Positions 18,507 through 26,762 of a stretch of DNA of 64,000 nucleotides are shown here, one piece after another (the first letter of the stretch is position 1; each line of letters opens with the position of its first letter). The notes under the pieces are model-generated. The model did not search any database, had not been told where the DNA came from, and was given only the letters and a program-made list of their open reading frames with translations. The stretch lies in assembly GCF_012931685.1 (NCBI RefSeq), contig NZ_JABANC010000002.1, positions 186,001 through 250,000 on the forward strand, in the 5' to 3' direction. The DNA is from Hanstruepera ponticola. GTDB lineage: Bacteria > Bacteroidota > Bacteroidia > Flavobacteriales > Flavobacteriaceae. The translations under genes and the position numbers were made by a program.

Positions 18507-19001
18507 ATGACACTTTTACTAAAGCGCTTAATAGCAGGTTTCTTGGATTATGTAGTTATAGGAATTTATGCATTGGCACTTTATGTTGTTGTTACTTCTG
18601 TCGCTCCGCTTGAAGCACTACTTAAAACATCAAACCCAATTAATGGTCAATTAATTGGGTTTATAACTTTAACATTACCAGTATTTTTATATTTCTATTT
18701 TTCAGAAAAAGGCAGTCACAGGGCAACCATTGGAAAACGAATAACTAAAATTCAAGTTAGTTCCACAGGTTCAATACTTAAACGTAACTTGTTTAAATTC
18801 CTGCCATGGGAAATGGCCCATTTAGGTGTTCATTGGATATTCTATTACTCCAATAAGAATATTGAAACACCTTTTTGGGTATGGTTTTGCTTGATCACGC
18901 CACAAGCTACAGTATTCTTGTATTGCATAAGTATCATATGGTCAAACGGTAAGTCGAGTATCTATGATAAGTGGAGTCAAACTGACATTATTCAAAAATA
19001 A
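18507..19001 (+). CDS. RDD family membrane protein (second copy)
   Basis: Protein of 164 aa with four hydrophobic helices and the RDD start signature LLKRLIAGFLDYVVIG (residues 4-19), followed by KGSHRATIGKRITKIQVSS. It is much shorter than the first RDD protein and lacks its soluble tail. The ATG touches the stop of the DUF2141 gene. A 31-bp element with perfect 13-bp arms lies inside the coding region (18632-18662). Function unknown. Confidence 0.85.
   Translation: MTLLLKRLIAGFLDYVVIGIYALALYVVVTSVAPLEALLKTSNPINGQLIGFITLTLPVFLYFYFSEKGSHRATIGKRITKIQVSSTGSILKRNLFKFLPWEMAHLGVHWIFYYSNKNIETPFWVWFCLITPQATVFLYCISIIWSNGKSSIYDKWSQTDIIQK
18632..18662. repeat. Perfect inverted repeat inside the RDD gene
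   Basis: Arms AAACCCAATTAAT (18632-18644) and ATTAATTGGGTTT (18650-18662) are perfect complements around a 5-base loop. It lies in the coding region and encodes part of a loop between helices. It could form a stable mRNA hairpin within the RDD message. Confidence 0.8.
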
Positions 19002-19040
19002 AAGTGGTTAGATTTGATACCTGTAAAACCTAACCACTTT
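19001..19040. terminator. Bidirectional terminator-like hairpin between RDD gene and dps
   Basis: AAAGTGGTTAG (19001-19011) pairs perfectly with CTAACCACTTT (19030-19040) across an 18-base loop. It lies between two convergent genes. T-runs are short, so termination strength is uncertain. Confidence 0.6.
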
Positions 19041-19064
19041 AAACTATTAACCAATTAAAGAAAC

Positions 19065-19544
19065 TTAAACGGTTTCTCCCAACCAAGCTTTCATCATCCA
19101 AACTGTTTTTTCCTGCTCTGTTATAAAATCACTCATCATAGAGTTAGTACCTTCATCATTAGCATCATCAGATTTGTCTAAAATGTGACGCTCTATTTTT
19201 AATAATTCGGTTAGAGACTCTACGATTAATTGAACAGCCTTTTCGTCTTGTGAAACATTTTGTCCCACAGGCACTTTAGCCGCTTTTGAATAATCTTCAA
19301 ATGTATGTAAGGGCGTGACACCCAATGTTAAAATCCGCTCGGCTATTTCATCAACTTTTAAGTTGGCATCAGTATATAATTCTTCAAATTTCACATGTAA
19401 GTCAAAAAAACGTTTCCCTTTAATATTCCAATGAATACCTCTTAAATTTTGATAATATATCTGAAAGTTTGCTAATAATTGATTTAAATCATCAGCTATT
19501 TGTTTTGTTTTATTCTCGTCTAATCCTATACTATTTAATGTCAT
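19065..19544 (-). CDS. dps: Dps family DNA-binding ferritin-like protein
   Basis: Ferritin-like dodecamer subunit of 159 aa that oxidises Fe2+ with peroxide, stores iron and protects DNA in starvation and oxidative stress. The ferroxidase ligands are seen in GIHWN (His38), FFDLHVKFEELY (His50, Glu54) and the following DEIAERI. The length is normal for the family. It faces away from oxyR across a spacer of about 160 bp, the common arrangement in flavobacteria, and OxyR-dependent control is likely. It lacks the long Lys-rich N-tail of E. coli Dps, so direct DNA binding is uncertain. Confidence 0.95.
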   Translation of the reverse strand: MTLNSIGLDENKTKQIADDLNQLLANFQIYYQNLRGIHWNIKGKRFFDLHVKFEELYTDANLKVDEIAERILTLGVTPLHTFEDYSKAAKVPVGQNVSQDEKAVQLIVESLTELLKIERHILDKSDDANDEGTNSMMSDFITEQEKTVWMMKAWLGETV

Positions 19545-19640
19545 TTTTTTATATTTTTTATTATTACCACAAATTTAATTTATAATTAACAGCTATTTCC
19601 ATAAATTTTATTGATAGTTTTTATATTTTTATAGCCTAAA

Positions 19641-19727
19641 TTGATATACATGACAATCACACAATTATATTGATATACATGACAATCACACAATTATATT
19701 GATATACATGACAATCACACAATTATA
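19641..19727 (+). repeat. Three perfect 29-bp tandem copies across the oxyR start
   Basis: Units at 19641-19669, 19670-19698 and 19699-19727 are identical; each begins TTGATATACATGACAATCAC. Each holds an ATG (19650, 19679, 19708). In copies 1 and 2 the ATG reads MTITQLY and then stops at TGA (19671-19673 and 19700-19702), because 29 is not a multiple of 3. Only copy 3 continues into oxyR. The distance from each decoy stop to the next ATG is 5 bases. The spans are small enough for slippage to change copy number. Confidence 0.95.
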
Positions 19728-20646
19728 TTATGTTTTGGCAGTTGCCGAAAATCAAAACTTCACTAAAGCAGCTGAAAAATGCTTTGTAACGCAACCAACA
19801 TTAAGCATGCAAATTCAAAAATTAGAAGACGAATTGGATGTGCAAATATTTGACAGAAGTAAAAAACCTATTGAATTGACTGATGTTGGTCGTAAAATAG
19901 TTAATCAAGCAAAAAACATTGTTAATGAGTCATATCGCATTCAAGATATTGTAGATCAGCAAAAAGGATTTATTGGTGGAGAATTTAAATTAGGAATCAT
20001 TCCCACAGTAATGCCCACTTTATTACCTATGTTTTTAAAAACATTTATAAAAAAGCACCCAAAAATCAAATTAAAAATTGAGGAGCTCACAACCGAGGAG
20101 ATAATTTCACGTATTAATGAAGGTCATTTGGATGCTGCCATTGCGTCAACACCACTGGAACATGAGAACATAAAGGAGCGTGTCTTGTATTTTGAGCCTT
20201 TTGTGGGCTACATTCCTAATCACCACAGACTCTATAATGCTGGGAAAATAGATGTTTCGGATTTAGAAATTGATGACATGCTCTTATTGGAAGATGGGCA
20301 TTGTTTTAGAGATGGTGTCATTAACTTGTGTAAAGCATTTAAGGATCACAATGATGATCAGTTTCAATTGGAAAGCGGTAGTATTGAAACCTTAATAAAG
20401 CTTTCTGATGAGGGCTTGGGCATGACATTATTGCCTTATTTACACACGTTAGATTTAAGTGAAAAAGGCAAACAAAATTTACATTATTTTAATGAGCCAG
20501 CACCAGCTCGAGAGGTCAGTTTAATTTATCATAAGAGTGAATTAAAAATGCAGATTATTGAGGCTATGCAAACCGTTATTTCAGGTATTATACGTGGAGC
20601 CATTACATTTCAAAATGTGCAAATTATTAGCCCCATTTCAAAATAA
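19708..20646 (+). CDS. oxyR: LysR-type regulator, OxyR-like hydrogen peroxide sensor
   Basis: LysR family regulator of 312 aa. The N-terminal winged HTH (residues 1-60: YYVLAVAENQNFTKAAEKCFVTQPTLSMQIQKLE) is followed by the LysR substrate-binding domain. OxyR identity is supported by EDGHCFRDGVINLC (about residues 195-208), which holds the two redox cysteines in the usual RCxxD-like setting, and by the divergent dps. ATG at 19708 (MTITQLYYVL) matches the family N-terminus. The start lies in the third of three 29-bp tandem copies, so two short decoy ORFs precede it. Confidence 0.93.
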   Translation: MTITQLYYVLAVAENQNFTKAAEKCFVTQPTLSMQIQKLEDELDVQIFDRSKKPIELTDVGRKIVNQAKNIVNESYRIQDIVDQQKGFIGGEFKLGIIPTVMPTLLPMFLKTFIKKHPKIKLKIEELTTEEIISRINEGHLDAAIASTPLEHENIKERVLYFEPFVGYIPNHHRLYNAGKIDVSDLEIDDMLLLEDGHCFRDGVINLCKAFKDHNDDQFQLESGSIETLIKLSDEGLGMTLLPYLHTLDLSEKGKQNLHYFNEPAPAREVSLIYHKSELKMQIIEAMQTVISGIIRGAITFQNVQIISPISK

Positions 20647-20768
20647 AAGGAAATCGCATACCTTTTTTAAGTCATTTCACTCATTGAAGTGACCCGTTTA
20701 CTCATTATCAATAGTGTTTTGGTACCATTTTGAATACCTTGATTGTACAATCACCAAAACAAATTGCT

Positions 20769-21371
20769 ATGAAATATCTTTACTCATCTATCATTTTTGT
20801 TTTTTGTTTAATTGTTTATCTGCAAATTCAATATCCTCCTGTTCATGTAAACAAATCTTTGAAAGATCAAAACCTGAATTACAGTACCATGCTCTATAGC
20901 TCCTATTTCCTTGCAAATGTTCCTGTAATAAAAACTAAATCAACTGATGACTTATTTGGGGATTTAAAGAAAACCAATGGTTTAGCGTTTGATAGTAAAG
21001 GACATATTTATGTTGTAGAACATAGCAAATCACAAATCGTTAAGTATGATGAAGATGGCGTAGTTTTAAATACTTTTAAAGTCACAGATGGTTATCCTCT
21101 TCATATTATTAAATCATTTGATTCAGATGCTATGATTTTTACAAACGTTACGGACAACAGTATTAATAAACTTTCAGAGCATGGAAAAATCACCAAACTC
21201 TATAAAGGATACCCATTGGATGTTCCTGTAGGGCTCACTTATAATGCAAAAGGGCTTTTACACGTAAGCAATTATAAGGAGAAAAAAGTATTCTCATTTA
21301 AAGATTACAAGTTACAATATATTACTACCCTACCAGAAGCAGATACCATAGTGTGTAAGGCCAAAAAATAG
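20769..21371 (+). CDS. Small NHL/SMP-30-like exported protein
   Basis: Protein of 200 aa with an N-terminal signal or anchor (MKYLYSSIIFVFCLIVYLQ) and beta-propeller-like repeats: TNGLAFDSKGHIYVVEHSKSQIVKYDEDGVVL, a central region, then VGLTYNAKGLLHVSNYKEKKVFSF. These have the G-x-LHV-S-N pattern of NHL or SMP-30 repeats. At this length it covers only about half of a six-bladed propeller, so it may be short for the family or may dimerise. ATG at 20769 is chosen because it puts the signal peptide first. It follows oxyR by 122 bp. Function unknown. Confidence 0.7.
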   Translation: MKYLYSSIIFVFCLIVYLQIQYPPVHVNKSLKDQNLNYSTMLYSSYFLANVPVIKTKSTDDLFGDLKKTNGLAFDSKGHIYVVEHSKSQIVKYDEDGVVLNTFKVTDGYPLHIIKSFDSDAMIFTNVTDNSINKLSEHGKITKLYKGYPLDVPVGLTYNAKGLLHVSNYKEKKVFSFKDYKLQYITTLPEADTIVCKAKK

Positions 21372-25990: not shown

Positions 25991-26021
<31 letters not shown>

Positions 26022-26033
26022 AATCAACTAATC

Positions 26034-26762
26034 ATGACAACTTTAACTAAATTAATTGTTTCTACAATCTTGGCCTTACTCTTATTTTCCTGTGAGTTCA
26101 GTACCAACTGGAATTCAGGAATAAAAGGAGATGGTAATGTGATAACCAAAGAACGACCCGTTGAAGGTAGTTTTAATGAAATTCATGTTAGCCGTGGACT
26201 AGATGTTTATCTGACTCCTGCTGATACTGATAAGATAATTATAGAAGCCGATGGGAATCTGCATGACATTATCACAACGCATATTGATAATAATGTTCTT
26301 AAAATTACCACAGAAGAGAATATTGGAACTGCAAGTTCCAAAAAAGTATTAGTAAGTTTTAAAAATGCTCATAAAATTGTGGCAACAAGTGGCAGTGATG
26401 TTTATTCTACCAAAACCATAACCACTGAAAATTTAAAATTAGAAACAAATAGTGGTAGTGATATGAATTTAGACCTTAACGTGAACTCATTGGTTTGTTT
26501 AGCTACAAGTGGTAGCGATTTGGAGCTAACTGGAAAGGTTACTAATTTTGATGCTGAAGCCAATAGCGGAAGCGACATAGATGCAGCCGATTTACAAGCT
26601 CATACATCCAATGTTAAAGCAACAAGTGGTGCCAGCGTTAGTGTTAACACTTCTAAAGAACTTATAGCGAGTGCCAATAGTGGTGGCGATGTTATATACT
26701 TTGGGAATCCTGAAAAATTAGAAAAAACTGAAGGTGTTTCTGGAGAAATTCGGAAAAAATAA
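26034..26762 (+). CDS. DUF2807 (GIN domain) lipoprotein
   Basis: Protein of 242 aa with a lipoprotein signal (lipobox LLFSC, Cys at residue 20) and a right-handed beta-helix of the DUF2807 family. Successive turns carry SGSD motifs: ATSGSDVYS, NSGSDMNLD, ATSGSDLELT, NSGSDIDAA, ATSGASVSV and NSGGDVIYF. The GNVITKERPVEGSFNEIHVSRGLDVYL start is the family hallmark. It completes the PadR-PspC-DUF2807 operon, whose biological role is not known but is envelope-related. Confidence 0.92.
   Translation: MTTLTKLIVSTILALLLFSCEFSTNWNSGIKGDGNVITKERPVEGSFNEIHVSRGLDVYLTPADTDKIIIEADGNLHDIITTHIDNNVLKITTEENIGTASSKKVLVSFKNAHKIVATSGSDVYSTKTITTENLKLETNSGSDMNLDLNVNSLVCLATSGSDLELTGKVTNFDAEANSGSDIDAADLQAHTSNVKATSGASVSVNTSKELIASANSGGDVIYFGNPEKLEKTEGVSGEIRKK

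Follow-up and report, generated by a model that had tools for sequence, protein, structure and literature searches.

How does a gene come to carry its own translation start three times over, from which of these starts is its product made, and what does the multiplication do to its expression? These questions are raised by the oxyR locus of Hanstruepera ponticola, a member of the Flavobacteriaceae, within the 64,000-nucleotide stretch of DNA analyzed here (hereafter, the window). Direct reading of the window reveals three identical 29-bp units arranged head to tail at 19640-19726, and Tandem Repeats Finder reports an array at 19640-19729 with a period of 29, 3.1 copies, 100% matches and 0% indels. 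The original prediction had placed three perfect 29-bp repeats at 19641-19727, which is the same array read in another register. Each unit consists of ATTGATATAC, the ATG, and the 16 nt that come next in oxyR, and it contains 10 nt of leader, the start codon, and most of six oxyR codons, the TAT codon being completed by the base after the unit. Every unit is followed by ATT, and the ATT at 19727-19729 after the third copy is the same triplet that opens each unit. Having head-to-tail copies (at least two by definition) of a unit within the range of about 10-100 bp, the array is a minisatellite.

The three copies occupy positions 19640-19668, 19669-19697, and 19698-19726 of the forward strand, with their ATG codons at 19650, 19679, and 19708, respectively. 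The third of these (ATG3) opens an intact, full-length OxyR frame, and the first two (ATG1 and ATG2) open frames that read ATG ACA ATC ACA CAA TTA TAT TGA, followed by TATAC and then by the next ATG. The resulting 7-codon leader ORFs, mini-ORF 1 (19650-19673) and mini-ORF 2 (19679-19702, both on the forward strand), encode MTITQLY and terminate close to the main start; as had been claimed for both, the stop lies 5 nt before the next ATG, with TATAC at 19703-19707 separating mini-ORF 2 from ATG3. The three AUGs are identical from -10 to +19 and differ only in their order, their distance from the 5' end, and their folding. The main oxyR frame is open back to 19654, behind a TGA stop at 19651-19653; a longer OxyR initiated at an in-frame codon further upstream is not favored, since the extension contains no ATG and its only common start is the TTG at 19699.

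The gene starting at ATG3 (19708-20646, forward strand) encodes OxyR. Its 312-aa product combines a LysR-type HTH with a substrate-binding domain (Pfam HTH_1 and LysR_substrate matches), its best PDB match is OxyR 4x6g (E 1.1e-47), and its best NCBIfam model is OxyR with 211 bits, under the model's cut-off of 329. The translation contains a Cys-X8-Cys pair as in OxyR, where C199 and C208 are the cysteines with reported roles. Upstream, a dps-like gene with a ferritin-like domain (19065-19544, reverse strand) is divergent from oxyR, and a divergent match of this kind precedes oxyR in 67 of the 106 loci compared, our own included.

For comparison with other species, we collected relatives from two sources. 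An OxyR match was present in 50 of 60 genomes (our own included), the best 30 of these matches (29 relatives) were taken for inspection, and the best 80 of 577 named loci, from Flavobacteriaceae such as Flavivirga, Algibacter, and Bizionia, were added, giving 105 relatives after 4 duplicates were dropped. In none of the 105 was a self-repeat of at least 14 nt with a period of 12-60 found between -120 and +90 of the start. All four other genomes inspected from the genus, one per species, have a single unit, and a degenerate pattern for a tandemly doubled oxyR start, which would miss OxyRs not beginning MTITQL, matched 1 of 397 family genomes, namely that of H. ponticola itself. The original prediction had proposed to compare the oxyR 5' ends of close relatives; in the four sisters, this comparison shows a single unit.

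The promoter region provided a fixed point for recognizing the ancestral start. In 104 of the 105 relatives, the oxyR ATG is preceded at 25-30 nt by a TAnnTTT(A/G) box; 200 block shuffles gave 8.6 such cases on average and 15 at most. Its last letter is A in 94 and G in 10 of the 104, G being that of the published flavobacterial -7 consensus, and its free positions vary as expected for a consensus with two free bases. The box starts 26 nt before the ATG in 66/104 cases and 25-27 nt before it in 94/104. In the window, the putative -7 box of oxyR is TATTTTTA (19624-19631, forward strand), which fits the flavobacterial consensus TAnnTTTG except for a final A. Published placement of the box at -12 to -5 (PMC9723704; PMC6847099) would put the transcription start at about 19636 and suggests a leader of usually 14 nt in the relatives. 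ATG1 lies exactly 26 nt after the box start at 19624, and ATG3 is 58 nt further. Likewise, the dps-to-oxyR distance is 164 nt when measured to ATG3, as opposed to a median of 106 nt in the 67 loci (our own included), and 164 minus 58 equals 106. Both distances therefore identify copy 1 as the ancestral start position, from which the OxyR start has moved 58 nt downstream. By this comparison, the ancestral spacing relative to the promoter box and to dps is preserved in copy 1 and not in copy 3, a point that the original prediction had missed. Since the predicted promoter lies upstream of both mini-ORFs, both should be transcribed, which supports the earlier assumption that they are part of the leader.

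The intergenic region between dps and oxyR has further features. In most relatives, those from other genera among them, conservation of the block ATAAATTTTATTGATAGTTTTTATATTTTTATAG (19601-19634) extends far past the -7 box, and the block is a possible OxyR operator common to dps and oxyR. The putative dps promoter, TAAATTTG (19570-19577, reverse strand), matches the -7 consensus exactly. An ATG within the predicted leader is present in 21 of 100 relatives with the box, so that an extra AUG appears to be often tolerated and may cost little. This leader ATG (in loci L010, L012, L060, L075, and others) is often AAATGAATA at -10, out of the OxyR frame, and constitutes a recurrent natural decoy start.

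Within its own genome the array is exceptional. A search of all 3,177,316 bases for the unit with at most 3 mismatches returned these three copies only, and the array is not due to chance. For comparison with other gene starts we used a 464-kb sample (400 kb plus the window; about 15% of the genome, all from one contig) with 333 starts, defined as the leftmost ATGs of ORFs of at least 150 aa. Exact tandem duplications with a period of at least 9 span the start in 2 of the 333 cases, one being the oxyR array (period 29) and the other a 10-bp repeat that is rich in T/A and present in two copies, and among 473 gene starts in the loci of relatives there is one, also of 10 bp. The oxyR array is the only one in the sample with a period of at least 10, at least 3 copies, and 100% identity, and a genome rich in such arrays was not seen in these 464 kb from one contig (about 15% of the genome). 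Chains of at least two mini-ORFs ending near the next ATG, as defined by loose rules, precede 9/333 gene starts in the sample and 7/473 in the relatives; thus, the rare thing is the duplication, not the mini-ORFs. An Rfam scan of 18900-20800 gave no match to a riboswitch or other known RNA. A mutator background is ruled out by mutS and mutL, which are intact and over cut-off in all five genus genomes. Longer arrays occur elsewhere on the contig, one with period 84 (7.2 copies, 91%; L123, 1-601) and one with period 198 (7.8 copies, 74%; L124, 14126-15669, G000 contig 7). Another leader repeat in the window, (ATCA)n at 25991-26027, is followed within a few nucleotides by the ATG of an ORF (26034-26762) whose product presumably resembles a head-GIN-type lipoprotein; the repeat has 7 perfect copies here, the maxima in the four sisters being 2, 2, 2, and 4, and is a second leader repeat in the window that differs between species.

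The sequence of the units also bears on how and when they arose. The ATT opening each unit and the ATT after the third form a 3-bp direct repeat spaced by 29 bp, which suits slippage as a mechanism. We propose that replication slippage between two such triplets 29 bp apart would have generated a tandem duplication, and that one further expansion would have left the oxyR start region copied twice. The oxyR start differs from that of the four sisters at two third codon positions, and both differences are present in all three copies, implying that the copying came later than these changes. Synonymous sites are saturated in comparison with the sisters (pS 0.76-0.87), and the copies have no difference at all. 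The event thus appears to be much younger than the species split, unless slippage keeps the copies alike; the identity of the copies supports the recent duplication originally proposed.

As for translation, a single transcript would start approximately 14 nt upstream of copy 1 and carry three AUGs. Ribosomes starting at AUG1 or AUG2 would produce the heptapeptide and terminate 5 nt short of the following AUG, where part of them may reinitiate, and others would bind AUG3 directly; with two upstream sites competing, OxyR would still be made, probably at reduced yield. For leaders with one, two, and three units, folding at 37 C predicts opening energies at the OxyR AUG of 3.5, 4.2, and 5.65 kcal/mol, respectively, with no error estimate; this predicted trend fits a lower yield in its direction and is modest in size. 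Reinitiation in E. coli is reported to lose 5, 20 or 70% with a gap of +2 nt and 40-80% with +14 nt, the last 15 nt of the upstream gene being sufficient, and in Haloferax a gap of +13 nt costs 60% in one gene pair (PMC10666635). By these values, which come from E. coli and Haloferax and not from Bacteroidetes, the 5-nt gap is short enough for the termination-reinitiation that had been proposed (PMC10666635), the effect of the mini-ORFs on OxyR translation itself being plausible. The reversible changes in oxidative-stress response that the original prediction envisaged are not supported: no inspected relative has a second unit, and gain or loss of 29 bp never alters the OxyR frame, since the last ATG is always in frame. 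On/off phase variation is rejected for the same reason, and any effect of copy number would be graded at most, with graded tuning being possible. OxyR output is probably lower, not abolished, and the allele is most probably short-lived and either neutral or of mild cost, rather than a device dedicated to regulation. As a whole, this reading, with recent slippage followed by continued synthesis of OxyR through initiation at ATG3 and reinitiation, seems to us fairly probable.

Several other explanations have to be weighed against it. The array could be under selection as a rheostat, its unit number changing at an appreciable rate and setting OxyR output stepwise, with heritable variation in the peroxide response as the outcome, but we consider this unlikely; we are likewise doubtful that each extra 29-bp unit adds a decoy start before oxyR so as to form a stepwise dial, with slippage moving cells between settings. 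Perfect direct repeats tend to gain or lose copies, the opening energy computed for the OxyR start rises as units are added, and leader repeats do change within the genus, as exemplified by (ATCA)n before 26034; however, the array was found in only one of the genomes compared, it never switches the OxyR frame, and the intact mutS and mutL genes of the genus leave no mutator to drive such changes. The array is known from a single genome assembly, which might be taken to suggest an assembly or sampling artefact, the true unit number being one or some other value, or three units being a minority variant. This is quite improbable, as short reads of the usual length exceed the 87 bp of the array and hence can span it, the genome is listed as 100% complete with 0.03 contamination, the contig has 605,726 bases, and the copies are all identical in a clean context.

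Two further possibilities concern the gene and its promoter. With two complete starts ahead of the real one and nearest to the predicted 5' end of the transcript, the duplication could have all but silenced OxyR and put the gene on its way out. Yet the full-length frame and both cysteines are kept, and the dN values of this OxyR relative to three outgroups (0.084, 0.097, and 0.093) are within the range of the sisters (0.081-0.115), so that the protein is without sign of decay and not evolving faster than in the sisters, by a weak test that is blind to a very recent event; we regard such a loss as very unlikely. There is also little probability that the units serve as extra promoters or operators, with the copy 3 transcript starting inside the array and the decoys being irrelevant. 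TATATTGA at each unit junction (19666 and 19695) is close to SM5, the minor motif TAnnTTGY reported for F. psychrophilum (PMC9723704), and every unit contains a sigma-70 pattern, TTGATA-16-AATTAT. However, SM5 needs a pyrimidine at its last base, where TATATTGA has A, the G of the junction TTG, the commonest base at its position, is present in only 0.35 of relatives, and the units are devoid of a TAnnTTTA/G box; the sigma-70 hits are not above shuffles (9 found versus 11.7 expected), and the main sigma factor of the phylum is described as using another consensus (PMC6847099).

The favored reading, a recent slippage duplication of the translation start, can be compared with several known systems. 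Like minisatellites or VNTRs in bacterial 5' regions, the array consists of identical head-to-tail units in one genome, and their number is expected to vary; unlike them, the oxyR unit holds a whole translation start, and copy number leaves the frame unchanged. Like the mycobacterial MIRUs, the array has short ORFs at a start codon that could deliver ribosomes by translational coupling, whereas MIRUs are described as dispersed and seemingly mobile, with a -4 nt spacing (PMC12548453), and the oxyR array is a local self-copy with +5 nt. Membership in a dispersed repeat family of this type is not supported, the unit being found at oxyR only in the genome. The array also resembles termination-reinitiation gene pairs in having a stop few nucleotides before the next start, but such pairs are reported to consist of real genes with mostly overlapping stop and start codons (PMC10666635), in contrast to two heptapeptide ORFs copied from oxyR. 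In Flavobacterium johnsoniae, AUGs beside the start are reported to be underrepresented, as they would mislead ribosomes (PMC6847099), whereas two additional AUGs, each in a full start context, are present in the oxyR leader. Such depletion was not reproduced in the H. ponticola genome: AUG and GAU at -21 to -1 number 48:48 for its 333 starts and 75:134 for the 473 starts of relatives, neither ratio being a fair test, given that the starts are leftmost ATGs and the loci of relatives represent a few genes repeated. A literature search by titles and abstract openings, mostly outside subscription journals, recognized no earlier report of such a start triplication, and we regard the array as a translation start recently duplicated in the manner of a minisatellite, a variant not found described in the literature searched.

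In Bacteroidetes, ribosomes are reported not to rely on Shine-Dalgarno pairing for locating start codons; according to one proposal, the initiation complex reaches the first AUG that suits it by diffusion along a leader free of structure (PMC6847099). The predicted oxyR leader, with three AUGs in an identical -10 to +19 context, amounts to a natural experiment on start choice, and start use on this array would directly test the first-AUG, nearest-5'-end, and reinitiation models. If OxyR output depends on the number of units, the array would also be a simple dial by which the level of a stress regulator could evolve.
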